A DNA stretch of 64,000 nucleotides from the NCBI RefSeq assembly GCF_020166435.1, contig NZ_JAINZP010000007.1, positions 1-64,000 on the forward strand, written 5' to 3'. The translations under genes were made by a program, and so were the position numbers. Positions 21,247-55,295 of the stretch are shown piece after piece (the first letter of the stretch is position 1; each line of letters starts with the position of its first letter). The DNA is from Pectobacterium versatile (GTDB lineage Bacteria > Pseudomonadota > Gammaproteobacteria > Enterobacterales > Enterobacteriaceae). The notes under the pieces were generated by a model. The model was not told the origin of the DNA. It saw only the letters and a program-made list of their open reading frames with translations, and did not search any database.

Positions 21247-21394
21247 GCACTATCGTGATGCGGTTAATCAGCGCCTTTTATCTACACGTTTTTATGCAGA
21301 TGCGGAGGCGGTTTCGTGCGCTCGTCCCTTAAACGTTCAGCGTTAGGTTCTCCCTCTGTCAGTCTGCTGTTTCTTATACGAATGCAGCGACATT

Positions 21395-21698
21395 GTGGGT
21401 TTTGCCGTTATCCGGCGTAAAAAATTATGCTGAGGAGATAGCGGGCTTCGGATGAGCCGCAGGACGCGGCGAAAGCTTGCGCCACGTCGGGAACGTGTTG
21501 CAAGCGGTCCGTAAAGCCAGATACCGACGAAGGCCCCGCGTTAGCGGCATAATTTCCGCCAAAAAGCCTGGGGTCACGGGGCGAGCGGCGTTTGAGCCGT
21601 CCCGTGTCGGGCGCGTGCTGCGGAGGAGCATGGAATAGCCATATTGTAAGCGCACGAAACTGTCTCCACAGCCACATAAAATATGACGAAGAGACAGG
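21395..21698 (+). repeat. Repeat B copy 1 (structured intergenic element)
   Basis: About 300 nt. Pairings seen: AAATTATGC (21422-21430) with GCATAATTT (21547-21555); GCCGC/GCGGC (21456-21470); CTTGC..CACGT with ACGTG..GCAAG (21476-21504); CACGGG..GC with GCCGTCCCGTG (21576-21605) around the loop GGCGTTTGA; and CTGTCTC/GAGACAG at the end after GCGCACGAAA. The same plan recurs in the other two copies with different stem bases. It lies between the convergent garK and barA. Confidence 0.8.
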
Positions 21699-21717
21699 GC
21701 TATGCTGGGGATATTGA

Positions 21718-24513
21718 TTACGAATGCATAGGTTTGATATGCGGCTGGGCGGCTTTGTTGACGTTGTCGATTTCGTCCAGCAGCTCTAGCCATTCGGGTT
21801 CCAGATCGCTGGCGTGAACGCCTTTACGCAGCTGTTGTTCCAGATAACGGCAGATGCGTTGCAGACGCGGAACGCCGCTGTAGCTGCAACTGCCGTGCAG
21901 TTTATGAACCAGCTCGATGATGTCATCATCCGTCTGCCCCTTCAGCACGTTTTCTATCTTCCGCTGAACCTCTGGCAAGAAATCCAACAGCATTTGCAGC
22001 AGGTCGCGCGCCAGTTCCGGCTTGTTGGCCGCCTGTTGCTGCGCCAGCGCCCAGTCGAGTGATAGCTGGCTATCGTCGTGCTCGTTCAGTAATCCCGTCA
22101 TCTCGCCCCGATTGCGCTTCAACGGATCTTGCCGTGCATGACGCGTCAACACGCTTTTCAGCATCTGTTCGTCTATCGGTTTCGCCAGATAGTCATCCAT
22201 ACCCGAACGCAGCAGATGCTCACGTTCACCCGTCATAGTCTGCGCCGTCACCGCGATGATAGGCGTGGTGGCATGGTGAGGGATCTGACGGATCAATTCG
22301 CTGGCGCAAATGCCGTCCATACCCGGCATCTGAATATCCATGAGAATAATGTCGCACTGATTCAGTTCTGCCTGTGCAATCGCATCTTGTCCGCTTTCGC
22401 ACAGGATAATCGTCTCGACCTGCTCTTCCAGCAGCGTGCCGATCAGTTTCAGATTAGCTGGATTGTCATCCACCGCCATCACCCTCAACGGTAAACGGGC
22501 GAGATGGCGTGCGGCACTCTGATGCGATGCAGTATCGTCCGGCAGAAAAGAGAACTGGAACAGCGTGCTGTCCTGTAACAGCGGCAGCAGGCGTGAGGCG
22601 GCGAGCGGTTTGCTCAGGCAGGCATGCACGCCGAAGGTTTTCAACTGCTCGGCATCCATTTGCGCCAGGCTGGGCAGCGCCAGAATCACACAGGGCGAGC
22701 GGCGGCAGATATCGCGCAGTCTGGGCGTGTAATCGAGCAGCGTATTACGGTATTGCACGGGAATACCGAGCAGCAGGATATCAAATTCCCCTTCTGGCAG
22801 TTGCTCAAACGTCGGGCTGTAGCTCACGATGAGCGGCGTCTGACTCAGGATATCCAGCGTGGCCTGTGCGGCGATGGGATGGTATTCGACATAAGCCAGA
22901 TGTTTGCCTTGCAGCATCGTGTAGGCGGGTTCGGTCGGTATCGCGTGCGGGTTGAGCGGTAGCGTGATGTGGAACCAGAAGGTCGATCCCTTGCTGAGTT
23001 CGCTCTGAAAACTGATATCGCCACCCATTTCTTTGACCAGACGTTGGGTGATGACCAGCCCGAGCCCTGTACCACCATGACGGCGAGAAATGCTGGTGTC
23101 GGCCTGACGGAAAGCCTGGAACAGCTGCGATTGCTGCAACTCGGCAATACCGATGCCGGTATCGCGTATTTGCACCTCTAACTGCACCTGATGAAGTTCC
23201 TGACGACGCTTCTCCACCCGAATATCGATGTTGCCCTGTTCGGTAAATTTAATCGCGTTGCCCAGCAGGTTGGTGATGATTTGCTGTATCCGTAGCGGAT
23301 CGCCGACAAACTGTTCGGGTACGTCATTCTGAATACTGAGCGTCAGCTCCAATCCTTTTTCATGTGCCGTGTGCGCCAGCAGCATGACAACGTCGTCCAG
23401 CGTGTTGTGCAGCGAGAACGGAATATCCTCCAGCACCAGCTTTCCGGCTTCTAGCTTCGAGAAATCCAGCACATCGTTAATAATATTCAGCAAGTTATTG
23501 GCGGACCGCTCGATGGTGAGCAGATAGTCCGTCTGTGTCGTGTTCAGCGGTGTTTTCAACGTCTGGCGGGTGAAACCGATCACGCCATTCAGCGGCGTTC
23601 TCAGTTCGTGCGACATATTTGCCAGAAACTCAGACTTGATGCGGGCGGCTTCCTGTGCGCGCTTTTTAGCCAGATCCAGCTCGACGTTTTGGATCTCCAT
23701 CTGCTCCAGCGTTTCCCGCAGATCGTAGGTCGCCTGATCGATATTTTGCTGCATTTCTTCGTGGTAGGCGGTCAGCGACATCGCCATCGAGTTGATGCCG
23801 TTTTTCAGCATATCCAGTTCGCCGAGCATGTAACCTTCGACCCGGCTATCCAACTGCCCACGACGAATACGATCGACGGTATCCACCATATTGCGAATAG
23901 GGGTGGTGACATCCCGCATCAGACGATAGGCAAAGATGACGGCGGCGCCCAAAGATAACAGCAGCAAGAGCGCGGCAATGAAAATTTCCTGATACTGCTG
24001 AAGCCGAATGGTGCTGGTATCCAGCTCGATCACCAGATAGCCGAGAGGTGTCGCGGTGCCGGGCAGCACGGGCGTTGTTCCGCCCTGCATGAATTCGCTG
24101 TCAGTGACGATCGGCATGTGCAGAATCAGCGCGTCATTCGTGTGGTGCAGGTGCAGCTTATTGTGTGCAAGCGCATCGCTGCTGAGCGACTCTAAGGTCA
24201 CGTTGTTGCGGACGTTGGTGGTGGCGAGGAGCTGATTACGCGCATCGAACACGCTAATGGTACGAATAATCGCGGAGTGACGGCGATGAAGCGTATTGAT
24301 TAACGCGGGAATCGTGTCCATCTGCCGATGAGTAATGGCATAAGCGCTGATGGTCGCCAGCGGCTCAATGATGCTGGTGCCCGAATCGGCCAATTGCGAC
24401 TGCAACTGATTGTAACGATGGATGACGAAGAACGAACTAAGCAGCAGTCCGATCATTAGCGTCGGTGCCAAAATCAGTATCAACATCCGTGCACGAAGAC
24501 TGTATTTGGTCAT
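21718..24513 (-). CDS. barA: Hybrid sensor kinase BarA (GacS/ExpS homologue)
   Basis: 931 residues from the ATG at 24513 (MTKYSLRAR...). An earlier in-frame start at 24555 adds 14 unconserved residues. A transmembrane segment lies near 10-30, a periplasmic sensor to about 165, a second span near 170-190, then HAMP. The histidine kinase has its phospho-acceptor in [13 protein letters not shown] (about 300). The ATPase carries DTGIGI and HGGTGLGL. The receiver has its aspartate in [11 protein letters not shown], and the C-terminal HPt has its histidine in [13 protein letters not shown]. It drives UvrY/GacA phosphorelay and thence RsmB/CsrB small RNAs, which control soft-rot virulence enzymes. 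Convergent with garK, divergent from rlmD. Confidence 0.96.
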
Positions 24514-24630
24514 GGGGTTCCAATGTGGGAGAATTAGAGGATGCTGAGCACCCAATGATGTAATTAGTTATCGGGTACTGCATGTACCGGTTACAGCCGT
24601 TCAACTCAAGAGATCAATCGATAGTACATT

Positions 24631-25980
24631 ATGGCGCAATTCTACTCTCCAAACCGGCGTGTGACGACCCGGAAAGCAATTCCTGCTAAGAACCTCACTG
24701 TTACGGTCACGTCGCTTGATCCGTTTGGGCAGGGGGTGGCGCGTCACGAAGGCAAGACGGTGTTTGTCACGGGTGTACTGCCGGGAGAGCAGGCCGAGGT
24801 CCAACTGACAGAAGAGAAGCGTCAGTTTTCGCATGCAAAACTTAAACGCCTGCTGACGCCTAGCCCGCAGCGCGTTGCGCCGCCGTGCCCGCATTTTACC
24901 CGCTGTGGCGGTTGCCAACAGCAGCACGCGGACATCGCGCTGCAACAGAGCAGTAAATCGGCTGCATTGATGCGTTTGATGACGCGGGAAACGGGCGCAG
25001 AGCTGCCTGAAGCCTCGCTGATTGCTGGCACACCTTATGCCTATCGGAGGCGCGCGCGGCTTGCGTTATACTTTCAGGCAAAAGAGCAGCGTCTGTTGAT
25101 GGGCTACCGGCAGTCAAATTCTCACGATCTGGTGGATATCAAAGCCTGTCCGGTGTTGCGCCCCGAGCTTGAAGCGCTGCTGCAACCGCTGCGCGATTGC
25201 CTGAGTCGATTAAAGGCGGTGAAACGCCTTGGGCATGTGGAGCTGGTGCAGGCGGAGAACGGTCCGCTGCTGGTGCTGAGGCACCTTGACCCACTCCATT
25301 CATCGGATCAACTGGCGCTGCGTGATTTTGCGCAGCAGCAGGGCGTTTCGGTTTATCTGGCACCGGATGCCGATTCGCTGACGTGTTTACAGGGTGAAGA
25401 GCCGGTTTATCACGTTGCTGGGCTGACGCTGGCCTTTAGCCCGCGTGATTTTATTCAGGTTAATGACGCAGTGAACCAGCAGATGGTCGCGCAGGCGCTG
25501 GCATGGCTGGATGTGCAACCGCAGGATAGAATATTAGATCTGTTTTGTGGCATGGGTAACTTCACGCTACCGCTGGCACAGCGTGCCGCCAGCGTCGTTG
25601 GTGTGGAGGGGGTGACCGCGTTAGTTGAGAAAGGACGCGAGAATGCCCGACGCAATGGGTTGTCCAATGTCACATTTTTTCACCAAAATCTTGAAGATGA
25701 CGTCACGCAGCAGCCATGGGCGGCTCAGGGTTTTGATAAGATATTACTTGATCCGGCACGTGCGGGTGCGGCAGGCGTGATGGAGCAGATAACCAGACTG
25801 GCACCGAAACGCGTGGTGTATGTCTCCTGTAACGCCACGACGCTAGCACGCGACAGCAAAGTATTACTGGCCGCTGGTTATCGGCTGGCGAATGTCGCCA
25901 TGTTGGATATGTTTCCACATACCGGTCACCTTGAATCGATGGCACTGTTTTTGCACGATACCGGCACGCGAAAGGCGTAA
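24631..25980 (+). CDS. rlmD: 23S rRNA (uracil-1939-C5)-methyltransferase
   Basis: 449 residues. The N-terminal TRAM domain (about 20-75) is followed by [4Fe-4S]-cluster cysteines in [14 protein letters not shown] and the later KACPVL. The SAM-binding motif is [15 protein letters not shown] near 305, the LDPARAG segment follows, and the catalytic cysteine is in [13 protein letters not shown] near 400. Same gene order as E. coli: barA divergent, relA directly downstream with a 53-bp gap. Confidence 0.96.
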
Positions 25981-26033
25981 TAGGCAGCAAAGCGGCGTCG
26001 TTTGCAAGGTGAAGGGTAACGTAGGGAGAAATT

Positions 26034-28268
26034 ATGGTTGCGGTAAGAAGTGCGCATTTGAATACGGCAGGTGAGTTTGTCCCTGACGCGTGGATTGCTT
26101 CACTGGGTATTTCCAGCCAGCAATCGTGTGAACGTTTAGCCGAAACCTGGCGTTACTGTGAGCAGCAAACGCAAGATCACGCCGATGCATCGCTACTGCT
26201 GTGGCGCGGCATTGAAATGGTGGAAATCCTGTCCACGCTGAGCATGGACAATGACAGCATGCGCGCGGCGCTGCTCTTTCCGCTGGCAGACGCGAACGTG
26301 GTGGATGAGGCGACGCTGGAAGCCGCGTTTGGTAAAAACATCGTTGATTTGGTGCATGGCGTGCGCGATATGGATGCAATCCGCCAGCTCAAAGCGACGC
26401 AGAATGATTCAGGCTCGTCTGAGCAGGTCGATAACATCCGCCGCATGCTGCTGGCGATGGTGGAAGATTTCCGCTGCGTGGTGATCAAGCTCGCCGAGCG
26501 GATCGCGCACCTGCGTGAAGTGAAGGATGCCCCGGAAGAAGAACGGGTATTGGCGGCCAAAGAATGTACCAATATCTATGCGCCACTGGCTAACCGCTTA
26601 GGTATCGGCCAGTTAAAGTGGGAGCTGGAAGATTTCTGCTTCCGCTATCTGCATCCTGATGAATATAAAAAAATCGCCAAGCTGCTGCACGAGCGCCGTA
26701 TCGATCGTGCGCAGTACATTGACGATTTTGTCAAAACGCTGCGCAACGCGATGAAAGAAGAGGGCGTGCAGGCGGAGATCTACGGTCGTCCTAAGCATAT
26801 CTACAGCATCTGGCGCAAGATGCAGAAGAAAGCGCTGTCGTTCGATGAGCTGTTCGATGTCCGTGCGGTACGCATTGTCGTTGAGCGCTTGCAGGACTGC
26901 TACGGGGCGCTCGGTATCGTGCATACCCATTATCGCCATCTGCCGGACGAGTTTGACGACTACGTCGCTAACCCCAAACCAAACGGCTATCAGTCCATTC
27001 ACACGGTGGTGTTAGGGCCGGGTGGAAAGACGCTCGAAATTCAGATTCGTACGCGACAGATGCATGAAGATGCCGAACTGGGCGTCGCAGCACACTGGAA
27101 ATACAAAGAAGGCACCTCCGTGGGCGGGCGTTCCGGTTACGAAGGCCGCATTGCCTGGCTGCGTAAACTGCTTGCCTGGCAGGAAGAAGTGGCGGATTCG
27201 AATGATGTACTGGACGAAGTTCGCAGTCAGGTGTTTGACGACCGGGTTTATGTCTTTACGCCGAAAGGCGATGTGGTGGATCTCCCTACGGGCTCCACGC
27301 CGTTGGATTTTGCTTATAACATCCACAGTGATATCGGGCACCGCTGCATCGGGGCGAAAATCGGCGGACGTATCGTGCCGTTTACCTACCAACTGCAAAT
27401 GGGCGATCAGATTGAAATCATCACCCAGAAGCAACCGAACCCGAGCCGTGACTGGCTGAACCCGAATTTAGGCTATATCACCACCAGCCGCGGACGTTCG
27501 AAGATCCAGAACTGGTTCCGTAAGCAAGATCGCGACAAGAACATTTTGGCGGGTCGACAGATTCTGGATGACGAACTGGCGCATTTGGGTGTCAGTCTGA
27601 AAGCCGCGGAAAAACTGTTGCTGCCACGTTACAACGTGAATTCGCTGGATGAGTTACTGGCTGCTATCGGCGGCGGTGATGTTCGTCTGAACCAGATGGT
27701 GAATTTCCTGCAATCGCAGCTAAAACAGCCGAGTGCGGAAGAGTTGGATCGCGAAGCGCTGCGACAGCTGACGCAAAAATCGCATCAGCCAGCGGCACGT
27801 AACACGAAGGACAACGGTCGCGTGGTAGTGGAAGGTGTGGGCAATCTGATGCACCACATTGCCCGCTGCTGCCAGCCGATCCCGGGTGATGAGATCACCG
27901 GGTTTATCACGCGCGGACGCGGAATTTCGATTCACCGCGCCGACTGTGAACAGTTGGATGAACTACGCGCCAGCTCGCCGGAGCGCATTGTGGATGCGGT
28001 ATGGGGCGAAAGCTACTCCAGCGGCTATTCGCTGGTGGTGAGGGTGATTGCCAACGATCGTAGCGGCTTGCTGCGGGATATCACCACAATTCTGGCGAAT
28101 GAGAAGGTTAATGTACTGGGCGTCGCCAGCCGCAGCGATACCAAGCAGCAACTGGCCACGATTGATATGGATATCGAGATCTACAACCTGCAAGTGCTGG
28201 GCCGCATTCTGGCGAAGCTCAACCAACTTCCAGATGTGATCGATGCGAGGCGCCAGCAGGGGGCGTAA
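26034..28268 (+). CDS. relA: (p)ppGpp synthetase RelA
   Basis: 744 residues, the E. coli length. The N-terminal HD-like domain lacks the HD metal pair, so no hydrolase activity is expected. The synthetase domain (about 245-370) carries YGRPKHIYSIWRKM and the DVRAVRIV segment. TGS follows near 405-468 (VYVFTPKGDVVDLPTGSTPLDFAY), then the helical and zinc-finger-like region with CCQPIPGD near 612. The C-terminal ACT domain is about 670-740. It makes pppGpp on starved ribosomes. Confidence 0.97.
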   Translation: MVAVRSAHLNTAGEFVPDAWIASLGISSQQSCERLAETWRYCEQQTQDHADASLLLWRGIEMVEILSTLSMDNDSMRAALLFPLADANVVDEATLEAAFGKNIVDLVHGVRDMDAIRQLKATQNDSGSSEQVDNIRRMLLAMVEDFRCVVIKLAERIAHLREVKDAPEEERVLAAKECTNIYAPLANRLGIGQLKWELEDFCFRYLHPDEYKKIAKLLHERRIDRAQYIDDFVKTLRNAMKEEGVQAEIYGRPKHIYSIWRKMQKKALSFDELFDVRAVRIVVERLQDCYGALGIVHTHYRHLPDEFDDYVANPKPNGYQSIHTVVLGPGGKTLEIQIRTRQMHEDAELGVAAHWKYKEGTSVGGRSGYEGRIAWLRKLLAWQEEVADSNDVLDEVRSQVFDDRVYVFTPKGDVVDLPTGSTPLDFAYNIHSDIGHRCIGAKIGGRIVPFTYQLQMGDQIEIITQKQPNPSRDWLNPNLGYITTSRGRSKIQNWFRKQDRDKNILAGRQILDDELAHLGVSLKAAEKLLLPRYNVNSLDELLAAIGGGDVRLNQMVNFLQSQLKQPSAEELDREALRQLTQKSHQPAARNTKDNGRVVVEGVGNLMHHIARCCQPIPGDEITGFITRGRGISIHRADCEQLDELRASSPERIVDAVWGESYSSGYSLVVRVIANDRSGLLRDITTILANEKVNVLGVASRSDTKQQLATIDMDIEIYNLQVLGRILAKLNQLPDVIDARRQQGA

Positions 28269-28271
28269 ATA

Positions 28272-28572
28272 CTGGTTTCACCATCAGCCAGGTGAAAATC
28301 TTGTGCGGGTGTGGTGAACAGTTTCGTGCGTGATTAGCCGTATTGTTCTTTGTGGCACCATTGCCACGCCCGACTGAGGGATGCTCAGACGCCGCATCCC
28401 TCAGAACCCAGGCTTTTGGCGAGAATTGTGCCGCGATGCGGTTCCTTCGATGAACATGCCCGCTGTCGAGCCGCCTGTGACGCGTTCCCTACGCGGCACA
28501 GGCTTTCGCCGCATCCATGCGGCTCACTCGGCGATCATGTGCATCTCAGCACAATTTTCTACGCCGTTTAAA
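28272..28572 (-). repeat. Repeat B copy 2 (minus orientation)
   Basis: Same plan as the copies at 21395 and 40480, read on the minus strand. GCACAATT (28549-28556) pairs with AATTGTGC (28424-28431), an A-T to G-C exchange relative to the other copies. CCTGTG..CGCGT pairs with ACGCG..CACAGG (28474-28502). CTGAGGGATGC pairs perfectly with GCATCCCTCAG (28374-28404) around loop GGCGTCTGA. A terminal CTG-TTCACC/GGTGAA-CAG stem runs to 28272. It fills the relA-mazG gap. Confidence 0.8.
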
Positions 28573-28655
28573 TGAAGATAGTGATGTCTTTGCGCTTTTT
28601 AGCACAGTTAGCTACCGTGTTTTGCTATTTTCACACAAATTTTTTCAGGAATATT

Positions 28656-29468
28656 ATGATTGTACCTTTGACGAATTTATCCTCCGTTGAGCGCCTGCTC
28701 GCCATCATGAAAACCCTACGTGACCCTGAAAATGGTTGTCCGTGGGATAAGGAACAGACTTTTGACACTATCGCGCCTTATACGCTGGAAGAAACGTATG
28801 AAGTGCTGGATGCCATCAGCCGTCAGGATTTTGATGACTTGCGCGGTGAGTTAGGGGATTTACTGTTTCAGGTGGTGTTTTACGCGCAAATGGCGCAGGA
28901 AAAGGGCTTGTTCGATTTCTCCGATGTGTGTAACGCCATCAGCGACAAGCTGGAACGCCGCCACCCGCATATTTTCGGCGATCTGACGCTGACGGACAGC
29001 GATGCCGTGCTGGCAAACTGGGAGCAGACCAAAGCGCAGGAGCGGGCGGAGAAAGATCGTCATTCGCCGTTGGACGACATTCCTGATGCGCTGCCTGCCT
29101 TAATGAAAGCGCAAAAAATTCAGCAGCGTTGTGCCTCTGTTGGCTTCGATTGGGACAGCCTGGGGCCGGTGCTCGATAAAGTGTACGAAGAGATCGACGA
29201 GGTGATGTTTGAGGCGCGGCAAGCCGTTGTCGATGAAGAAAAATTAGGTGAAGAGATTGGTGATTTATTGTTCGCCACAGTCAATCTCTCTCGTCATCTG
29301 GGGCACAAGGCTGAGAATGCATTACAGGCGGCAAATCGCAAGTTCACGCGTCGTTTTCGTGAGGTAGAACAAATCGTTACGGCATCGGGAAAAACGCTGG
29401 AACAGGCGACGCTGGATGAAATGGAAGCCGCATGGCAGCAGGTAAAAAAACAGGAAATAGGCCATTAA
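28656..29468 (+). CDS. mazG: Nucleoside triphosphate pyrophosphohydrolase MazG
   Basis: 270 residues from the ATG at 28656 (AGGA site 6 nt upstream; E. coli 263). A frame running back to 28572 enters repeat B and is rejected. Two tandem MazG domains: the first with EETYEVLDAI and GELGDLLFQVVFYA (about 45-85), the second with EEIDEVMFEARQ and EEIGDLLFATVN (about 180-215), each supplying the ExxE-12-ExxD metal site. It hydrolyses NTPs and (d)NTPs and dampens ppGpp-linked responses. Lies between relA and pyrG as in E. coli, but without mazEF. Confidence 0.95.
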   Translation: MIVPLTNLSSVERLLAIMKTLRDPENGCPWDKEQTFDTIAPYTLEETYEVLDAISRQDFDDLRGELGDLLFQVVFYAQMAQEKGLFDFSDVCNAISDKLERRHPHIFGDLTLTDSDAVLANWEQTKAQERAEKDRHSPLDDIPDALPALMKAQKIQQRCASVGFDWDSLGPVLDKVYEEIDEVMFEARQAVVDEEKLGEEIGDLLFATVNLSRHLGHKAENALQAANRKFTRRFREVEQIVTASGKTLEQATLDEMEAAWQQVKKQEIGH

Positions 29469-29679
29469 TCCGTTTTTAATCACAAACCCTGTTTTTATCG
29501 ATTTTAATGAATATATTTTATTGTTATTAAAGGTAATTATTGGTTTTGGTGAGAGCGGTTTTACTTCACCTTCGAGGGGGTTGGAATCGCCACATTGTGT
29601 AAAACGAACATTTGTGGCGTTCATCAGGTTCAGGTATACTACTTTCCCGTCTTGGTACCTCCATCGTCTTTAAACCTAA

Positions 29680-31332
<1,653 letters not shown>

Positions 31333-31344
31333 GAGTTATATCAG

Positions 31345-31370
31345 CAACGCGCGATCGCTATCGCGCGTTG
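31345..31370 (+). terminator. Hairpin between pyrG and eno
   Basis: CAACGCGCGAT-cgct-ATCGCGCGTTG, an 11-bp perfect stem 13 nt after the pyrG stop. It has a weak T-run (TTGTTCGTC), so read-through into eno is likely. Confidence 0.6.
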
Positions 31371-31397
31371 TTCGTCTAGGGTTTTAGTTCTATCTAA

Positions 31398-32726
<1,329 letters not shown>

Positions 32727-32792
32727 TTACGCCTCTGGTGTTATCAGGTAGCTGAGAAAGCGGCCTGATACGCGCCCAGCGTGATTAACTAT

Positions 32793-32830
32793 AAAAATCC
32801 AGAAGCGTGAAAACGTTTCTGGATTTTTTT
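32793..32830. terminator. Strong bidirectional terminator after eno
   Basis: AAAAATCCAGAA pairs with TTCTGGATTTTT, ending in a T-run of seven. The A-run on the other side serves the convergent gene at 32844. Confidence 0.9.
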
Positions 32831-32843
32831 CGACTGCGTATCG

Positions 32844-33644
32844 TTACAAGCTTCGGAGAACAACCATTCCCGGTTTTGAGCGCATATATTCAAGAAATGG
32901 CGAGTCGACAACCTTTCTGTTTGCTTCGAGTGAAGAAGCGTTTCTGAACCATAGGGCGTTATCCTTATGGATAGCGATTCCTACGTGTGAAACATCCAGT
33001 CCTTCAAGAGGTGAATAAACACCTACGTAATCGCCTGTTTTCAGATGGCTGATTATATGCGTATCAATTAAGTTACCTGGGATGAAATTTATTTTCCGTG
33101 GGATAACGCCTAATCCTTTAACATACTCCCCGCCCTGCGGGTTATGATTAAGCTGTTTATTGACAGTGACATAATTTGGGCTGATATCTGCGGTTACATC
33201 CAGAGTGTTATGTGGATTCTTGGTGCTCCAGTCAGTAAAAAAGTGGCGGCGGGTAAGGTAGGTGACACGACAGTCGATATAGCGTGTCTTGACTAGATTT
33301 TTCAGAAATGATGTTTGATCTTGGCTCTGACTGAGTGCTTCAACGTAATCTGTGAGTGTGAAACAGTCTACTCCGTTGAAATCAGCAACCAATGCCTCCG
33401 CTTCGTCAGGAGAGCCAATTAGTGTGTTCGCTATGTAGGGCGTATTGAGAAAGGTTGATGATACCTGACCGATAATTTCTCCTCTGCTTTTACCTGGTGA
33501 TATGGTGACCTCTGAATTAATAATAAAGCTGATTTTTTCGAGGGTCGTTTCATCTATAACAGTACGATATTCTTGATTATTAGGTGAAGCGCAGGAGGTT
33601 AAAGGGGTGGGAACATTTGGACGTGAGGATATTGATGCTTTCAT
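32844..33644 (-). CDS. DUF1460 (NlpC/P60-like amidase) family protein
   Basis: 266 residues. The likely nucleophile is C94 in FNGVDCFTLTDYVEAL and the likely histidine is H220 in GLDVSHVGIAI, a spacing typical of the DUF1460 family related to peptidoglycan amidases. I see no N-terminal hydrophobic segment. An in-frame TAG just upstream of the ATG rules out a simple extension, so the protein appears leaderless. The N-terminus PLTSCAS looks faintly like a lipobox but lacks the hydrophobic region. The gene faces eno and is flanked by A+T-rich DNA and repeat debris, suggesting acquisition. Function is inferred from family only. Confidence 0.7.
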   Translation of the reverse strand: MKASISSRPNVPTPLTSCASPNNQEYRTVIDETTLEKISFIINSEVTISPGKSRGEIIGQVSSTFLNTPYIANTLIGSPDEAEALVADFNGVDCFTLTDYVEALSQSQDQTSFLKNLVKTRYIDCRVTYLTRRHFFTDWSTKNPHNTLDVTADISPNYVTVNKQLNHNPQGGEYVKGLGVIPRKINFIPGNLIDTHIISHLKTGDYVGVYSPLEGLDVSHVGIAIHKDNALWFRNASSLEANRKVVDSPFLEYMRSKPGMVVLRSL

Positions 33645-33925
33645 TATATATACCTAATTACGTTAATGTGTGTAATTAGTATTATTGACCAATTTTTTAT
33701 TTGTGGTTGTAAAAAAACGTTTTATTTTATTGAAGTAGATGAATATTTAAGTGTGATATATATTCTCTCTATTAGTCCATAGTATTACTTTTTTAACCTC
33801 TGTTCTGAGGGTTTTTTATGAAGCTTAACGATTATGGGGGCTTGTTTTTTAATAAATTCATTGTGTTGGCTTTCTGTTGTTAGCCTTATTTTCTTACTTT
33901 CATATTTTTATCACATGCAAATATT

Positions 33926-34175
33926 TATACTCATAATACTTCAGTTGTATGCGTATTGGCTGTGTTACTCAGCACGCCCAACCCCGTTGTGAACACTGCA
34001 AGCCGCGTTCAAATCTGTCCCAGAAAAATTTGCCAGTCACCTAAATCACTGACTTGATTTAGCACTGTGCTTCAGTGAGAAACATCCTGTCTCTCACTGA
34101 AGCCCAATTGCTGGCTGGTCAAATTTATTCCCAACGAATTTTTCCTTCTCTTGCCGCCTGATTGATATAGGGTAT
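33926..34175. repeat. Repeat A copy 4, decayed, with an internal hairpin insertion
   Basis: Both ends are recognisable (TATAC..CATAATACTTCAGTTGTATGCG and ...GGGTATA) but the body is diverged. In the middle lies an extra perfect stem, GCTTCAGTGAGA (34069-34080) with TCTCACTGAAGC (34092-34103). The flanking region 33645-33925 is A+T-rich with no gene seen. Confidence 0.65.
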
Positions 34176-34183
34176 AGCGCGGG

Positions 34184-34864
34184 TTAAGCCAACTGCTTGA
34201 GAATCGCTTTAGCAACCACTTCCGAGCTGGCCGGGTTCTGACCGGTGATCAGCTTGCCGTCTTCAACGAGGTACGGTGCCCAGTCCGGGCCTTTTTCGTA
34301 GAGCCCGCCGAGTTTCTTGAATTCATCTTCAATCAGGAAAGGTACGACGTCCGTCAACTGAACCGCCGCTTCTTCACCGTTGGTGAAGCCTGTCACTTTG
34401 CGGCCTTTAATCAGCGCATCGCCATTTTCTGCTTTCACATGAATCAGCACGCCCGGAGCGTGGCAGACAAAACCGGTCGGTTTGTTGGCGCGCACAAAAG
34501 CTTCGATGAGCGCGATAGAGATCGGCGATTCTGCCAGATCCCAAAGCGGGCCGTGACCGCCGGGATAGAAAACGGCATCGAAATCCTGTTCGCTGACGGT
34601 ATCCAGTTTTACCGTATTCGCCAGTTCCTGTTGCGCAGCCGGGTCGGCTTTAAAACGATGCGTCAGTTCGGTTTGAAAATCGGCCAAATCGCTTTTCGGG
34701 TCAAGAGGCGGCTGACCGCCAGAAGGGGAGGCAAGCACCAGCTCGGCACCTGCGTCTTTAAAGGTGTAATAAGGGGCGGCAAACTCTTCCAGCCAGAAGC
34801 CGGTTTTATTACCCGTGTTGCCCAGTTTGTCGTGAGAAGTCAGTACCATTAAAATTTTCATCAT
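34184..34864 (-). CDS. DJ-1/PfpI family protein (type 1 glutamine amidotransferase-like)
   Basis: 226 residues. The nucleophile-elbow cysteine is C134 in GFVCHAPGVL, with the preceding acid in FYPGGHGPLWD and a long insert after residue 50, as in glyoxalase III / HSP31-like members. A role in methylglyoxal or reactive aldehyde detoxification is plausible. It lies 44 bp downstream of an aldehyde dehydrogenase on the same strand, which supports a shared aldehyde-stress operon. The start may be one codon later (MKILMV). Confidence 0.8.
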   Translation of the reverse strand: MMKILMVLTSHDKLGNTGNKTGFWLEEFAAPYYTFKDAGAELVLASPSGGQPPLDPKSDLADFQTELTHRFKADPAAQQELANTVKLDTVSEQDFDAVFYPGGHGPLWDLAESPISIALIEAFVRANKPTGFVCHAPGVLIHVKAENGDALIKGRKVTGFTNGEEAAVQLTDVVPFLIEDEFKKLGGLYEKGPDWAPYLVEDGKLITGQNPASSEVVAKAILKQLA

Positions 34865-34908
34865 TTTTCTCTCTAGGGTTGCAGGATGATCGGGTGAATA
34901 GACGCTGG

Positions 34909-36327
34909 TTACCCTTTCAGGGCGGCGACAATCGCGTCTTGTTTCTCATGGTAAGGCGCACGCAGTGTCAGGTTAGACGCGCCATCTTCACTTTGTATGA
35001 CAATCGGTTTGGCGTGGCTGAAACGGCGGAATCCATGAACGCCGTGATACGCGCCGATGCCGGATGCGCCAACGCCGCCGAACGGAAGTGTGTCGATAGA
35101 CACGTGCGTCATTACATCGTTGACGACCAGCGCGCCTGATGTCGTTCTGCTGGCGAAGCGTTGCTGCATGGCCTCATCGTTGCTGAACAGATAGGCTGCC
35201 AGCGGGCGTGGATGCGCATTGATGTAGTGAATCGGTTCCTCTGCGGCCTGATAGGTTTTGATGGGCAGCAGCGGGCCGAAAATTTCTTCCTGCATGATCG
35301 TCATCTCATCGCTTACGCCGAACACCAGATGCGGGGCAATCTTACGGCTTTTGGCGTCGTAGGGCGCTTCGCCTTCCGGTGCCAGACTGACGACGGTCGC
35401 GCCTTGCTGCTCAGCCTCTTTCAGAATACGAATCAGGCGATCGTAATGTCTGTCAGCAATGATAGACGTGTAATCTGGATTCGCCTGTAACGTCGGGAAG
35501 CTTTTCTGCATAAAGGCTTTTGCGGCATCGCGGAAAGCCTGCTCCTGACCTTCGGGCAGGAGAACATAGTCCGGCGACAGGCAGATTTGTCCGGCGTTGA
35601 AGGTTTTCACCGTCAGCGTGCGTTCAACGGCTTCAGTGATATCCGCGCTGCTATCAATCACGACTGGTGATTTGCCACCCAGCTCCAGTGTGACCGGCAC
35701 CAGATTCTCTGCCGCCGCGCGCATCACCTGTTTCCCAACGGCGGTGCTGCCGGTGAAAACCAGATGATCGAACGGCAGTTCGCTGAATGCCTGACCGATT
35801 TCTGCATCACCCAACACCACGGCCAATTCCAGCGGATCAAAATAATGGGCAATCAGTTCTGCCAGCAGTTCAGACGTACGCGGCGTGAGCTCTGACGGTT
35901 TCAGAATTGCGGTATTACCGGCAGCAAAAATGTCAGCCAGCGGGCCGAACGATAGGTTCACGGGGAAGTTCCACGGGCTGATCACGCCGATCACGCCCAA
36001 AGGCTGATGTTGAATCCATGCCTGCATGCCGGGAGCGGGTTCATCCACAGGTTCTGGCTGCATCCAGCGTTCAACGTTGTCGATGGCGTTCTGGAGTATT
36101 TTCAGCGTGATGCCGATGTCGGCGGCGAAAGAGTGATACAGGCTGCGATGGCCGAAATCGTCACTCATAGCCTGCGCGAGCGCCGCATGGTTTTCACGGA
36201 GCAGGTTGATGCTGCGCTGTAAGCGATCTTGACGCAGCGCGGCATCGGCGGGGCCAGAGGCAATGTGAGCGCGCTTCATCGTATTCAGGATGGCTTGTAA
36301 ATCCTTTTTGGATTGTTGTGTCGACAT
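34909..36327 (-). CDS. calB: Aldehyde dehydrogenase, coniferyl-aldehyde-dehydrogenase type
   Basis: 472 residues from the ATG at 36327, which has an AAGGAG site 7 nt upstream. The upstream in-frame extension to 36393 is not conserved. NAD-binding motifs PWNFPVNLSFGPLADIFAAGN and FTGSTAVGK, active-site glutamate in LELGGKSPVV, catalytic cysteine in FNAGQICLSPDYV, and the EEIFGPLLP motif are present. This subgroup oxidises coniferyl and similar aromatic aldehydes, relevant to lignin-derived compounds in plants. Substrate is inferred. A LysR gene is divergent upstream. Confidence 0.8.
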   Translation of the reverse strand: MSTQQSKKDLQAILNTMKRAHIASGPADAALRQDRLQRSINLLRENHAALAQAMSDDFGHRSLYHSFAADIGITLKILQNAIDNVERWMQPEPVDEPAPGMQAWIQHQPLGVIGVISPWNFPVNLSFGPLADIFAAGNTAILKPSELTPRTSELLAELIAHYFDPLELAVVLGDAEIGQAFSELPFDHLVFTGSTAVGKQVMRAAAENLVPVTLELGGKSPVVIDSSADITEAVERTLTVKTFNAGQICLSPDYVLLPEGQEQAFRDAAKAFMQKSFPTLQANPDYTSIIADRHYDRLIRILKEAEQQGATVVSLAPEGEAPYDAKSRKIAPHLVFGVSDEMTIMQEEIFGPLLPIKTYQAAEEPIHYINAHPRPLAAYLFSNDEAMQQRFASRTTSGALVVNDVMTHVSIDTLPFGGVGASGIGAYHGVHGFRRFSHAKPIVIQSEDGASNLTLRAPYHEKQDAIVAALKG

Positions 36328-36497
36328 GTTTTGTCTCCTTTTCGTCGTCGAGTACCAGAGAAAACAGAAAGTTAGCCGGGGTTTCCGGGTCACTCAAGAT
36401 GGGATAAAGGATACGGCAGGGGTTGATCTGCCCGCCAACAAGATTATTATTCGGGGGGTATAAATAATTTTATGGGCATAAAATCTATAGGTATCGT

Positions 36498-37388
36498 ATG
36501 TCACTAATTCGCCTACGCACGTTTGTGGAAGTCTATCGGCAGCGCTCAATTAGCGGCGCGTCACGCGCGCTCAATCTGACCCAGCCAGCGGTGTCGCAGC
36601 ATATTGCCGGGCTGGAGGTGGCGGTGGGGCGTCGTCTCTTTGAGCGTCAGGCAAACGGCGTAACGCCAACGTCGGCAGCGGATGATCTGGCGGCGGATCT
36701 GGGGGATAAGCTCGATGAAGCGGAAGCGGCGCTGGCTTCGGCCCGTGCGAGGTCAATGGACGTCGCGGGGACGCTGCATATCATTGGTCATGCGGATTTC
36801 ATGGCCGAAGTGGTGTCGGAACAGCTATTGCCGCTGCTTGAGGCGGGTGTGCGGGTGCACATGCATACCGGCGACGGCGATTTGATTAAACAAATGCTGC
36901 TTGAAGGGCACTGTGATTTGGGCATAACGGCGCACCCGGTGACGGATAAGCGGCTGAAAAGCGATCTGTTGAAGAGTGCGACATTACAGGCGGTGGCGGC
37001 ACCTGCGATCGTCGAGCGGCTATTGCAGACGGGCGATCTGCCGCAGGCGCTGGCGCAGGAGCCGATGCTGGCGTATGACCTTGAGTTTCCTCTGATCGAT
37101 CACTGGTTGAAGAAGAACCGCATGGAGGATAAGGGACTGGTGCCTGCCGTGGTGAGTCAGGATCTGCGTGCGCTGCGTCGCGTGCTAACCAGTGGATTTG
37201 GCTGGACGGTGATGCCGGTGTATTTGTGTCAGGACCTGCTGGATGCGGGGGAGCTTGTTGTCATTCCGCCTCCCGTTGGCACAACGCAGCTGGATTACTA
37301 TCTGGCCTGGGTGCCGGGTGCTCTGCGCCAGCCGCGTTTAGCCCACGCGCGGCAAACCTTCCTGTGGCGACTACAGCACGCTGAATAG
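36498..37388 (+). CDS. LysR-family transcriptional regulator
   Basis: 296 residues. The N-terminal winged helix (about 3-62) carries SISGASRALNLTQPAVSQHIAGLE, followed by a linker helix and a periplasmic-binding-like effector domain. It is divergent from the aldehyde dehydrogenase/DJ-1 pair across a 170-bp gap, the standard arrangement for a LysR regulator and its target. The inducer is unknown. A hairpin follows the stop. Confidence 0.9.
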   Translation: MSLIRLRTFVEVYRQRSISGASRALNLTQPAVSQHIAGLEVAVGRRLFERQANGVTPTSAADDLAADLGDKLDEAEAALASARARSMDVAGTLHIIGHADFMAEVVSEQLLPLLEAGVRVHMHTGDGDLIKQMLLEGHCDLGITAHPVTDKRLKSDLLKSATLQAVAAPAIVERLLQTGDLPQALAQEPMLAYDLEFPLIDHWLKKNRMEDKGLVPAVVSQDLRALRRVLTSGFGWTVMPVYLCQDLLDAGELVVIPPPVGTTQLDYYLAWVPGALRQPRLAHARQTFLWRLQHAE

Positions 37389-37431
37389 TGCTATTCTCTG
37401 CTAAAAAAAGCGCCATTTTTCAAGACATCAC

Positions 37432-37461
37432 AAGGCAACGTCCGTTGGCGACGTTGCCCTT
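37432..37461 (+). terminator. Terminator after the LysR gene
   Basis: AAGGCAACGTC pairs with GACGTTGCCCTT, followed by CTTCTTCCT. The region 37389-37690 between it and rhiT shows no gene. A longer frame there is an accidental in-frame extension of rhiT. Confidence 0.7.
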
Positions 37462-37690
37462 CTTCCTGCTGACTTCCTATCTTCTATCCTGTGATCGCCA
37501 TAAACGAACTGCTGGTTTCGTTCAGTTAAAATCGCTTTTTATAAAATCTTTGAAGCGGATCGCACCAATCTTCCCTGTGCTGCCAGCGTGGGGCGCGTGG
37601 TGGCAAAAGCGCAAAGGTTTTCACGATCGCCGGGCGCTACCGTATCAGCGTGACACCTTCATAATTAAAAATGTTCGGGGAAGGATGGCG

Positions 37691-39250
37691 ATGAAAACGC
37701 GTAAGATCGGTTTGGCTAACTATTTAGCCTACGGTTCAGGGGACTTTCTTGGTGCGGGTACCACCGCGCTGACGGCCGCTTGGTTACTCTATTTTTACAC
37801 TACGTTCTGTGGCTTAACGCCGATTGAGGCAACGTTTATTTTTGCGATGGCGCGCGTGCTTGATGCTGTCGTCAGCCCGCTGATGGGCTTCCTGACCGAT
37901 AACTTCGGTTCAACCTGGCTGGGCAAACGCTTTGGCCGCCGTAAGTTCTTTATTCTGCTCGGTATTCCCTTCGTGTTTAGCTACAGCTTCATGTGGGTCG
38001 GGGATATGAGCTATTGGTACTATCTGCTGACGTACCTGCTGTTCGATGTCGTTTATACGATGGTGCTGGTGCCGTATGAAACGCTGGTGCCGGAAATGAC
38101 CGATGACTTCAAACAGAAGACTAAGTTTTCCGGCGCACGTATCGCGCTGGCGCAGCTGTCTGCGATTTTGGCCGCGTTTCTGCCGGGCATCCTGTTAGGC
38201 TACTTTGGCAAAGACAATGCGGTGTCCTTCTTCTATTCGAGTCTGGTGTTCTCCGTTATCTGTGCGCTGGTGCTGACGCTAGTCTATTTCTTTACCTGGG
38301 AACGGCCACGCGATCAGATGTCGGAAGCGTCGCTGCGGGCGGAGAAAGAGCGCCAGTCTCTGACGTTAGGCCAAAGCCTGAAACGGCTGAACGTTGAGTT
38401 GGTTTCCACGCTGCGTATTCGTATTTTCCGTCAGCATCTCGGGATGTATCTGGGCGGGTATATCGCGCAGGACGTGTTCAACGCCGTATTCACCTACTAC
38501 GTGGTCTTTGTGCTGATGCAAAGCCCGACTATGGCGTCGAACCTGATGGGCACCATGGCGATTCTGCAATTCATTGCGGTGATCGGCATGATTCCGCTGT
38601 GCATCCGCTTTGGGCCAGCTCCATCTTACCGCTTGGTCGTGTGCCTGTTTGGCGTGAGTGCGCTGTCCTACGCGGTCCTGTGGTACAGCGGCCTGCATGA
38701 CACCTTCTCTCTATTGCTGTTGATTTCTGCGCTGGCGGGCATCGGGCGCGGCGGGATCAACTACGTACCGTGGAACACCTACACTTACATTGCGGATGTG
38801 GATGAAGTGATTACCGCACAGCGTCGCGAAGGGATCTTCGCTGGGATTATGACGCTGACTCGCAAAGCCTCTCAGGCTGGTGCGGTGATGCTGGTGGGCG
38901 TGGTGTTACAGCTCTCCGGCTTTGTGTCCGGCCAGAGCGTACAGGCACCGAGCGTTAGCCACACGATTCTGATGATTTTGAGCTTCGGCACCGTGGGCGT
39001 GCTGGCGCTGGGCTTCCTTGTTTCTCTGCGCTTTAAGCTCAACCTGCAAACGCACAGCGTGCTGCGGGAAGAGACGCTGAAAATGCGTGAAGCCGGGCGT
39101 CCTGTGCCGGAGAAAATTACGCCGCAGGCGCGGGCAACGGTCGAAATGCTGGCTGGTATGCCGTATGAATCGCTGTGGGGCAACAACAATATCGGCTATC
39201 TGAACCGCCACAAAGGCGACAAGCCGGTCACGCATGCCACGCAGCCGTAA
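37691..39250 (+). CDS. rhiT: Rhamnogalacturonide transporter RhiT (GPH family)
   Basis: 519 residues from the ATG at 37691, with the ribosome site GGGGAAGG 6 nt upstream. The frame is open back to 37388 but that stretch lacks membrane character and a start signal. Twelve spans, with GPH-family signatures AMARVLDAVVSPLMGFLTDNF and VLVPYETLVPEMT. In Dickeya, RhiT imports the oligosaccharides left by rhamnogalacturonan lyase and is co-transcribed with rhiN; the next gene here is rhiN. RhaS and catabolite control are known in Dickeya. I could not fix the sites here. Confidence 0.87.
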   Translation: MKTRKIGLANYLAYGSGDFLGAGTTALTAAWLLYFYTTFCGLTPIEATFIFAMARVLDAVVSPLMGFLTDNFGSTWLGKRFGRRKFFILLGIPFVFSYSFMWVGDMSYWYYLLTYLLFDVVYTMVLVPYETLVPEMTDDFKQKTKFSGARIALAQLSAILAAFLPGILLGYFGKDNAVSFFYSSLVFSVICALVLTLVYFFTWERPRDQMSEASLRAEKERQSLTLGQSLKRLNVELVSTLRIRIFRQHLGMYLGGYIAQDVFNAVFTYYVVFVLMQSPTMASNLMGTMAILQFIAVIGMIPLCIRFGPAPSYRLVVCLFGVSALSYAVLWYSGLHDTFSLLLLISALAGIGRGGINYVPWNTYTYIADVDEVITAQRREGIFAGIMTLTRKASQAGAVMLVGVVLQLSGFVSGQSVQAPSVSHTILMILSFGTVGVLALGFLVSLRFKLNLQTHSVLREETLKMREAGRPVPEKITPQARATVEMLAGMPYESLWGNNNIGYLNRHKGDKPVTHATQP

Positions 39251-39287
39251 CTGTATTGAACTGTTAACTGATAACTCAATTGGATGA

Positions 39288-40433
39288 ATGACTATGACCG
39301 TATTCAGTGTAAAACATAGCCCGCTTTTACGTCAGCCGGAACGCTTCATCTCCCGTGAGGATCTGAAGGCGCTGATTTGCCGTATCACCGACAATCTGGT
39401 GAATATCGAGGATAAAACCGGTGAGTTCTTGTTACGGCTGGACGATGGTCGGGTGATTGATACCAAAGGCTGGGCGGGATGGGAATGGACGCACGGCATC
39501 GGGCTGTACGGGATTTATCAGTATTACCAGCAGACGGGCGACGAGCAGATGCGCGCTATCATCGACGACTGGTTTACCGAGCGTCTGGCGGAAGGTACGC
39601 CGACGAAGAACGTGAACACCGTATGCCCGTTCCTGACGCTGGCTTATCGCTATGAAGAAACGGGCGATGCCCGCTGGCTGCCGTATCTGGAGCGCTGGGC
39701 GGAGTGGGTGATGTATGAAATGCCGCGCACGGACAAGCAGGGTTTGCAGCACATTGTTTATAACAACGAAAACCATCAGCAGATGTGGGACGACACGCTG
39801 ATGATGAGCGTGCTGCCGCTGGCGAAAATTGGCAAGCTGTTAAACCGGCCTGAGTTTGTGGAAGAAGCCACATATCAGTTCCTGCTGCATGTGCAATATC
39901 TGATGGATCGCGAAAGCGGCCTGTGGTTCCACGGCTGGACGTTCGAAGGGCAGCATAACTACGCCAAAGCGCGCTGGGCACGTGGCAACAGCTGGCTGAC
40001 GATCGTTATTCCTGAATTTATCGAACTGCTGGATCTGCCGGAACACAACGCCACGCGTCGCTTCCTGTTGCAGGTGCTGGAAAGCCAGATTGAAGCATTG
40101 GCGAAATATCAGGATGACAGCGGTCTGTGGCACACGCTGATCGACGATCCGAATTCGTACCTTGAAAGCTCGGCCACTGCCGGTTTTGCCTACGGTATCC
40201 TGAAAGCGGTGCGCAAACGCTACGTCGACCCGAGCTACGCTGAGGTAGCGGAGAAAGCCATTCGTGGCGTGATTAATCACGTTAATAAGGATGGTGAGCT
40301 GACGCAGGTGTCATTCGGCACCGCGATGGGCAACGATTTGGATTTCTACCGTAACATCGCCCTGACCTCCATGCCTTACGGTCAGGCAATGGCGATTCTG
40401 TGTCTGGCGGAATACCTGCGGGTGTATCTGTAA
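39288..40433 (+). CDS. rhiN: Unsaturated rhamnogalacturonyl hydrolase RhiN (GH105)
   Basis: 381 residues of the (alpha/alpha)6-barrel GH105 family. WAGWEWTHGIGLYGI, WDDTLMMSVLPLA (the acid catalyst region), HGWTFEGQHNYAKARWARGNSW and SSATAGFAYGILKAV are the family motifs. It removes the terminal unsaturated galacturonyl residue from rhamnogalacturonides in the cytoplasm after RhiT uptake. It lies 37 bp after rhiT. The start could be two codons later (39294). Confidence 0.9.
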   Translation: MTMTVFSVKHSPLLRQPERFISREDLKALICRITDNLVNIEDKTGEFLLRLDDGRVIDTKGWAGWEWTHGIGLYGIYQYYQQTGDEQMRAIIDDWFTERLAEGTPTKNVNTVCPFLTLAYRYEETGDARWLPYLERWAEWVMYEMPRTDKQGLQHIVYNNENHQQMWDDTLMMSVLPLAKIGKLLNRPEFVEEATYQFLLHVQYLMDRESGLWFHGWTFEGQHNYAKARWARGNSWLTIVIPEFIELLDLPEHNATRRFLLQVLESQIEALAKYQDDSGLWHTLIDDPNSYLESSATAGFAYGILKAVRKRYVDPSYAEVAEKAIRGVINHVNKDGELTQVSFGTAMGNDLDFYRNIALTSMPYGQAMAILCLAEYLRVYL

Positions 40434-40479
40434 CGGGTTATCGCAACTCTTATATCCAAATGCTGCGAGTTTTTATGGT

Positions 40480-40775
40480 TTGGCCGTTATCCGGCGTGAA
40501 AATTATGCAGCGGTGGGCTTGACCGCCGAGTGAGCGACAGGACGTCGCGAAAGCCAGCGCCATGCCGGGAGCATGTTGCTGGCGGCTCGAAAAGCGGGCA
40601 TGGGCACCGATGGAACCGCGTAGCGGCATAATTTAGCCAGAAGCCTGGGTTCGTAGGGCGGCGGCGATTGAGCCGCCCTACGTCGGGCGCGTGTACGGTA
40701 TCGCATACGAGTGGCGGTGGTGTGGCGCACGAAAGCCTCTCTTAACCTGCATATAAATGTGATTAAGAGATAGGC
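40480..40775 (+). repeat. Repeat B copy 3
   Basis: Same plan as the copies at 21395 and 28272. AAATTATGC (40500-40508) pairs with GCATAATTT (40626-40634). CCAGC..CATG pairs with CATG..GCTGG (40554-40582). CGTAGGGCGGC pairs perfectly with GCCGCCCTACG (40652-40682) around loop GGCGATTGA. The terminal CTCTCTTAA/TTAAGAGATAG stem (40736-40774) follows GCGCACGAAA. It lies after rhiN. Confidence 0.8.
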
Positions 40776-42948: not shown

Positions 42949-44128
<1,180 letters not shown>

Positions 44129-54932: not shown

Positions 54933-55295
54933 TGGTGGAGCTGGGGGGATTTGAACCCCCGTCCGGAACCACTCTACCGTCGGTACTACATGCTTAGTCT
55001 ATCTTTACATTCGCTTGCCAGCTGCGAATAGACACGCCACTAACAAACTAGCCTGATTAGATTTAGTGCTTCAACCCCAGGCAAGGCATCCACACGATCT
55101 CTTTTGGGTTTGACCTCTCTTGATCCCCGTCCTAAGAGCGGAGGCTAGGGAGAGAGGGCTATAAGCAGGTTATTAAGCTGCTAAAGCGTAGTTTTCGTCG
55201 TTTGCGACTATTTTTTTGCGGCTTTTTACGAGGCAAACCGCCCCTCGGCATGCACCTTGGGCTTTGCAAATCCCGTCGAATCCAGAATCAGCCCC
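54933..55295 (-). ncRNA. ssrA: Transfer-messenger RNA (tmRNA)
   Basis: 363 nt, equal to E. coli. The 5' end GGGGCTGATTCTGG and the 3' end CCCCAGCTCCACCA form the alanine-tRNA-like acceptor. The resume tag reads ANDENYALAA then TAA (55205-55173). Rescues stalled ribosomes with SmpB, whose gene is just upstream on the same strand. Its 3' flank is the integration site of the satellite. Confidence 0.98.

Follow-up and report, generated by a model that had tools for sequence, protein, structure and literature searches.

What is the hairpin-rich sequence that recurs in the intergenic DNA of a 64,000-nucleotide (nt) stretch of Pectobacterium versatile (contig NZ_JAINZP010000007.1, positions 1 to 64,000; the window): a non-coding RNA, a processed 3' element, or a transposing unit of DNA? 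The original prediction, made from the sequence of this stretch, described three copies, here called B1, B2 and B3, and left this choice open. We compared them with further copies in the same genome and in other genera, and with their orthologues at fixed sites. Our results speak for a strand-specific fold of RNA-like character within a dispersed, non-autonomous element located at gene ends. With a probability of roughly 0.55, the working form of this element is a strand-specific folded RNA of ~245 nt.

Anatomy of the element

The three copies were found where they had been placed, together with the stems described for them: outer stems ATTATGC/GCATAAT and ATTGTGC/GCACAAT, second stems CTTGC/GCAAG, CCTGTG/CACAGG and CCAGC/GCTGG, and third stems CTGAGGGATGC, CGTAGGGCGGC and a bulged CACGGG form, with the loop GGCGnnTGA. 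The order of hairpins is common to all three, and their alignment with flanks (339 columns) has a mean column identity of 77%. In folding, B1, B2 and B3 each beat all 100 of their own dinucleotide shuffles, with z of -2.75, -5.29 and -3.05, respectively.

The conserved core of ~245 nt has a GGCGTAAAA-like start, ends in CGCACGAAA and is built of two domains. The 5' domain consists of a GGCG stem, an A-rich stretch, helix P1, a long mismatched P2, P3 with the loop CA(N)GGANG, a GCGAAAGC linker, P4/P5 with a GGA loop and a small CCGCG-GCGG hairpin, while the 3' domain comprises P7 with the loop GGCGnnTGAG and P8 with a TCG...CGA base, and terminates in CGAAA. The last stem had been counted as a part of the element; it does exist, but as a separate 3' hairpin (CTGTCTC...GAGACAG) which, like a related upstream sequence, accompanies part of the copies and is missing in others.

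For analysis of the fold 141 distinct segments were collected. Seven had no 3' end by pattern (L143, which looks like a real copy, the chance matches L049, L085 and L106, and L074, L123 and L132), and 11 of the other 134, some real copies among them, had no recognisable 5' start, which left 123. These gave 70 non-redundant sequences, 58 of them without the apical module described below, and after removal of five partial or mis-trimmed ones 53 copies were aligned, those of Pectobacterium included. GGA in the P3 and P5 loops is invariant in all 53 rows. The P3 pattern CA(N)GGANG is present in 114 of the 123 copies; inspected by eye, the nine misses comprise six in which the search stretch lies past the hairpin, one with an N, one with another loop and one without the 5' domain. 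By pattern, 60 of the 114 P3 loops read AYGGAY, 38 AGGAC and 16 other NGGAN, and P5 has GGA in 99 of 105 module-free rows, mostly as CGGGAAC or CGGGAGC and not AYGGAY.

Covariation and strand asymmetry

The structure obtained with RNAalifold and inspection has 69 pairs in 11 helices. Compensatory change had been deduced from three copies, which might stand for a few events; among the 53 copies two-sided changes affect 44 of the 69 pairs (447 cells, a count inflated by related rows). Altogether 93.9% of 3588 cells pair, compared with 26.6-46.6% in slid-partner controls, over which the structure is favoured by its partial derivation from the same alignment. In 500 shuffles the observed value was never reached on any of five measures. 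In helices P3, P4/P5 and P7, 99.7-100% of cells are paired, and a single position may show as many as five pair types. Single copies provide further examples, such as the outer stem AGGGGC/GCCCCT in L037 and the outermost GGCG/CGCC changed to CGCG/CGCG in L039.

Cells with G-U outnumber those with A-C by 29:3 in the 49 pairs of the eight best-pairing helices (97.8% or more) and by 105:43 over all 68 pairs, with pair 43-99 left out of both counts; this pair is a conserved U-G in 49 of 53 rows. The excess of G-U over A-C therefore means that the fold was selected on the named strand and not on both DNA strands alike, and the asymmetry together with the conserved U-G pair points to RNA.

Constraint in orthologous copies

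Selection on structure, as proposed earlier, is supported not only across copies but also within orthologous copies at fixed sites. From 58 full-length matches 46 rows were used for rates and 44 for pairing counts, leaving out ten module-bearing copies as well as L172 and L174, which have no module. At B2 in the window orientation (13 genomes) we noticed 0.008 changes per site in paired and 0.057 in unpaired positions, the two 50-nt flanks changing at 0.062 and 0.099. Paired and unpaired rates were 0.005 and 0.031 for inverted B2 (eight used), and 0.007 and 0.038 for B1 (seven used). The range of flank rates was 0.062-0.179 overall; only the 5' flank of B1, which consists of long-form element sequence, fell outside it (0.011).

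Over the five orthologue sets 33 distinct changes keep pairing and 12 break it, while a random single change is expected to keep it ~26% of the time; among single changes, 18 lead to G-U and six to A-C. Resident copies thus appear to be kept by selection in either orientation, most clearly at B1 and B2, and we regard the support for this as good but not final.

Family size and distribution

The number of copies had been underestimated. R1, a covariance model built from the 53 copies, all from Enterobacterales, and used with E-values from a shortened calibration, gave 30 matches at E ≤ 0.01 in the window's own genome (4.83 Mb in 69 contigs; 150 of 1248 first-look candidates scored) instead of three, with 22 exceeding 210 bits and another scoring 170 bits. 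A DNA search of this genome with copy B3 returned 33 matches at E ≤ 1. Any two copies in hand from one genome are at most 92.8% identical. Two copies of the own genome form an inverted pair (G000:C1:117462-117816).

Search of related genomes with a covariance model, suggested at the outset, yielded further copies. At the relA-mazG site a full-length copy is present in all 25 genus genomes, the window's included. The element also occurs in Brenneria, Samsonia and Serratia marcescens, at loci read from an exact-pattern scan of named genomes that gave at least 112 stretches, the best 80 of 112 being listed. Among 149 genera of the family sampled, six genomes had a pattern match, one of which was a false coding hit. 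Copy B3 had no match in plasmid, phage and E. coli collections, and a scan of viral contigs with one pattern found none. Pattern matches in Inhella and Mycolicibacterium (L049, L085, L106) and one in a coding sequence (L032) were read and dropped as chance.

Genomic sites and orientation

According to a crude open reading frame (ORF) caller, 52 of 119 classified copies lie between convergent genes and three between divergent ones, against a background of 40 and 82 of 238 gaps; the remaining four of the 123 are at a locus edge. Between tandem genes 36 copies are located in sense orientation behind a gene with a co-directional next gene. The copies had been said to lie beyond stop codons, and B2 indeed begins 53 nt past the relA stop, but it is antisense to both of its neighbours, relA and mazG.

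Orientation varies at single sites. Within the 25 genus genomes, B2 is oriented as in the window in 13 and oppositely in 12, B3 in ten and eight with seven lacking a full copy, and B1 in eight and seven with ten lacking one, weak partial matches (L190, L193, L215, L223) being classed as none. Whether the opposite copies arose by inversion or by separate insertion is not settled. By eye, the B1 site holds remnants of both orientations in some genomes, and in three (L213, L221, L222) an ordinary terminator-like hairpin replaces the element. Exact flanking direct repeats of at least 10 nt accompany eight of 123 copies, compared with a mean of 2.5 in shuffled pairings. Of these eight, however, L070 and L094 owe their repeats to the element's own sequence, and one and the same repeat accounts for both L020 and L075. 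The longest flanking repeat averages 6.98 versus 6.76. In L031 (same as L052; a Brenneria roseae record) a very similar terminator-like hairpin, ACAGGGCGTNTGCCCTGT, was seen by eye on both sides of the element, as if duplicated upon insertion. On this evidence, together with the limited identity of same-genome copies, the element has moved or been replaced, though not recently as far as seen.

IS50 is an insertion sequence (IS) with a defined end sequence and a 9-bp duplication, and IS50-like outer sequences are found in long-form copies only. The end pattern CTGTCTCTTANNCACA, with at most one mismatch, occurs at five places of the genome, each beside an element copy (four at 3' hairpins and one upstream of copy L006), and no IS with these ends was found there; IS50-like ends were accordingly dropped as a source of mobility in this genome.

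Possible function and alternative explanations

A folded RNA of this kind would originate from neighbouring genes, as part of their read-through or 3' untranslated region (3'-UTR) transcripts, or else from spurious starts in antisense. Its two GGA loops make the RNA-binding protein RsmA/CsrA the first candidate partner, which the two hairpins may dock, and the loops fit the CsrA consensus, CANGGANG. The csrA gene is present in 20 of 20 carrier genomes tested, a count that does not discriminate, having no background set. The most likely job would be to protect or mark transcript ends, while the ~22 full copies together could hold some RsmA/CsrA. Past spread would have depended on trans-acting machinery that uses terminator-like sites as targets, a route reported for the repeat YPAL. 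A stronger version, in which some two dozen copies with two putative docking hairpins each form a genome-wide dispersed RNA decoy that buffers the regulator, we consider doubtful.

The fold might instead serve movement alone, as the substrate of an IS200/605- or RAYT-style transposase, or of an IS50-like one acting on CTGTCTCTTA-like ends, and have no RNA function. Multiple dispersed copies, change of orientation with gain and loss at single sites, the small excess of direct repeats with the overlaps already mentioned, and the IS50-like outer sequences of long-form copies all agree with a DNA-level mobile element. However, if structure mattered only during movement, constraint in orthologues that stayed put would be unexpected; the limited identity of same-genome copies speaks for little recent movement, the five end-pattern places include no suitable IS, and the conserved U-G pair is RNA-like. 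We find this explanation conceivable, if rather doubtful.

It is improbable that the element is just a hairpin-rich substitute for a terminator between converging genes, for which any stable hairpins would suffice. Placement at gene ends, the ordinary hairpin in the three genomes without the element at B1 and a terminator-like site on the antisense strand of B2 are consistent with it, yet it would need neither a fixed two-domain architecture nor invariant loops, and the 28 copies inspected have no T-run in common after their 3' end. Far less credible still is that paired changes accumulated without selection, through hairpin-templated repair, in which one arm serves as the template for the other. 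Double changes are frequent and intermediates few in P3, P4 and P7, which resembles its outcome, but such repair should treat both strands equally, in conflict with G-U:A-C ratios of 29:3 in copies and 18:6 in orthologues, and the long-range helices P1 and P2 covary too.

Several observations weigh against the strand-specific RNA and its proposed partner. A promoter of its own is unsupported (mean upstream sense score 5.05 versus 6.12 for shuffled upstream sequence), and of the two promoter-like sites near B2 neither is on the strand of the element; as no promoter was found, transcription would have to come from neighbours or spurious antisense starts. Between tandem genes 28 antisense copies stand beside the 36 sense ones, and the antisense B2 is constrained as strongly as the others. 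This would not be expected of a plain 3'-UTR role, and the near-even counts argue for a role in trans or low pervasive transcription. Pairing reaches only ~76-80% of cells in P2 and the inner P8 hairpin, and six of seven outer P8 pairs are invariant, so that covariation is uninformative there. Site B3 is less clear than the others: paired and unpaired rates are 0.032 and 0.060, in inverted copies (six used) 0.043 and 0.044, and in the window orientation six of 18 distinct changes break pairs. All orthologue counts, made without a tree, comprise few events, and a site may have been refreshed by other copies. In the related Rfam motif TwoAYGGAY (RF01731), compared below, the second loop is CGA and not GGA in five loci (L242, L245, L246, L247, L265), by which RsmA/CsrA as a predicted partner is weakened. 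Finally, among nine distant loci matched by R1 five have no RF01731 match at E ≤ 1, and one weak distant locus (L235) was not recovered by R1 on a second search.

The optional apical module

Judged by an upstream GAGTAA, the P5 loop is enlarged by an extra module in 20 of the 141 segments, with the order ACAAA-hairpin-GAAC-hairpin-GGCCC..GGG-hairpin-GAGTAA. In a sister genome (G160), which matches the window at 97% and 99% identity in the two parts of the locus, the B1 copy has the module (~73 nt net), and this difference is a clean gain or loss. The window's genome contains the motif of the module at six places, half of them within element copies and the others outside (L272, G000:C6:18900-19900; L274, G000:C69:76300-77300; L273, G000:C67:128600-129600). 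The outside modules lie in repeats that contain CCTAAATAATTCGAGT close to one of their ends; L272, which seems to contain three diverged modules, and L274 have them beside ERIC-like cores. Rfam AaHKsRNA22 (RF02902) resembles the apical module of L033 (26.2 bits, E 0.0066 for 451 nt); this match is below the 39.8 cut-off and covers the module only, at one locus.

Features of the window

Coordinates of the copies and their parts are given in Table 1. B1 adjoins a BarA-like hybrid sensor kinase gene (21718-24555, minus strand; sCache_4, HisKA, HATPase, receiver and Hpt). BarA controls the CsrA system in relatives, and the proximity is probably chance. The window also contains the tmRNA gene (54933-55295, minus), a single CRISPR-DR4 direct-repeat match (523-550, minus; 35.1 bits, barely at the cut-off of 35 bits) and an ORF at 43188-43559 (minus) which presumably represents a fragment of an IS3-type integrase (GDISFIRLQDKW...).

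Table 1. Element copies and their structural parts, in window positions
Feature	Position	Strand	Remark
Copy B1, full core (R1 model 1-248)	21412..21659	+	R1 233.8 bits (G000:C67:21412-21659)
Copy B2, full core, antisense to relA and mazG	28322..28567	-	R1 238.4 bits
Copy B3, full core	40491..40734	+	R1 234.4 bits
B1 helix P3, loop CAGGACG with invariant GGA	21456..21470	+	
B2 helix P3, loop CATGGATG	28508..28523	-	
B3 helix P3, loop CAGGACG	40534..40548	+	
B1 helices P4/P5, GGA in apical loop; site of the optional module (~73 nt net) in sister genome L209	21475..21505	+	
B2 helices P4/P5	28473..28503	-	
B3 helices P4/P5	40553..40583	+	
B1 helix P7, loop GGCGnnTGAG (3' domain)	21575..21606	+	
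B2 helix P7	28374..28404	-	
B3 helix P7	40652..40682	+	
B1 optional 3' hairpin CTGTCTC...GAGACAG, long-form copies only	21660..21697	+	
B3 optional 3' hairpin GCCTCTC...GATAGGC	40735..40775	+	
B1 site, residual 3' end of an opposite-orientation copy (GGTTTCGTGCGC), common to genomes with the inverted copy	21310..21321	-	by eye

Comparison with known systems

No description of the present element was found in the literature searched by title and abstract opening. HEARO-like guide RNA, hammerhead and a group II remnant were considered and dropped, having no Rfam support. Like ERIC/RU-1 and other enterobacterial miniature inverted-repeat transposable elements, it is dispersed, intergenic and structured if transcribed, but the 53 aligned copies contain no ERIC core. 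REP elements are likewise palindromic intergenic hairpins; they are, however, described as 20-40 bp long, unlike the two-domain fold of 245 nt. R200 of P. fluorescens, given as 320 bp with 47 copies in one strain, may be a Pseudomonas counterpart by size.

YPAL/RU-2 behaves comparably as a repeat and is also present in the window's genome. It is described as ~168 bp long, has internal inverted repeats, targets dyad symmetries with duplications of 3-26 bp, and is said to be made with upstream genes (PMC2229807); the sequence printed in another report (PMC2759123) has, by eye, two NGGAN hairpins. R1 matched none of 19 YPAL loci, and the five YPAL places of the own genome are outside the 30 R1 places; RF01731 gave no match in ten YPAL loci at E ≤ 0.1 and none in one at E ≤ 10. 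YPAL was therefore rejected as the same family: the two are alike by eye, and no model joins them. As separate observations, YPAL/RU-2 occurred in 10 of 149 genera sampled (loci L276-L295), and 10 of 10 YPAL loci matched the Yersinia small RNA family Ysr224, eight above cut-off, on the strand opposite to the GGA hairpins.

The closest relative is TwoAYGGAY (RF01731, clan CL00106), an orphan motif since 2010. The survey of that year regards it as probably RNA and probably not cis-regulatory (PMC2864571), Rfam labels its type Cis-reg, and CsrA binding has been predicted from its two hairpins, with mention of tandem G-A pairs, in a later work (PMC4333381). Nowhere in the literature passages at hand is the motif termed a repeat.

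A match to an existing family had been named as something that would remove novelty, and the outcome is divided. No Rfam family reaches its cut-off in the window copies: a scan of the window returned only tmRNA and CRISPR-DR4, with no RF01731 at gathering; the B3 region had no RF01731 match at E ≤ 10, a search of the own genome with RF01731 (seven candidates scored) gave none, and the same holds at cut-off for 17 loci and all families, RF01731 scoring 34.7 and 33.3 bits in two of these loci against 43. On the other hand, R1, with five candidates scored in each genome, reached E ≤ 1e-4 in eight of 368 further Gammaproteobacteria genomes, and at the R1 coordinates of four of the nine distant loci (L230, L231, L232, L233) RF01731 is above its cut-off. 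By this overlap of the two models the 5' domain appears homologous with TwoAYGGAY, with which it shares its architecture and a P3 loop AYGGAY or AGGAY.

RF01731 is multi-copy too. It was found in 18 of 369 genomes, 15 of them above cut-off, and in none of 14 control genomes, and eight genomes hold six or seven places, some below cut-off (seven candidates scored per genome). Close inverted TwoAYGGAY pairs, ~150-170 bases apart, were seen at G330:C2:97225-97565, at G441:C1:460963-461308 and 1853353-1853707, and at G535:C1:2051941-2052277; they resemble the own-genome pair at G000:C1:117462-117816. The differences are that the second loop of the element is NNGGAR and not AYGGAY, and that window copies possess a 3' domain (P7, P8 and the CGAAA end) beyond the RF01731 span. 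The latter is to be qualified, as several distant loci seem by eye to have 3' hairpins as well: the better distant matches share the 5' domain, and several add a hairpin resembling P7 with TCGC...GCGAAA or a similar sequence behind it. Hairpins on the 3' side are also frequent at the RF01731 loci that were read.

These data suggest that TwoAYGGAY, in several genomes at least, is dispersed in multiple copies and possesses a second domain that the Rfam model does not cover. Should the decoy role prove true, the whole class across Gammaproteobacteria would be a transposable or once-transposable RNA family kept by its hosts for this purpose. A link between small mobile repeats and post-transcriptional CsrA/RsmA regulation becomes testable, with natural replicates offered by single sites that occur in either orientation, the apical module being present or absent. 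Considering the RF01731 overlap in distant loci, the element is not categorically new; rather, it forms a new and larger branch of that motif, with multi-copy dispersal, a 3' domain and a nested module that is optional.

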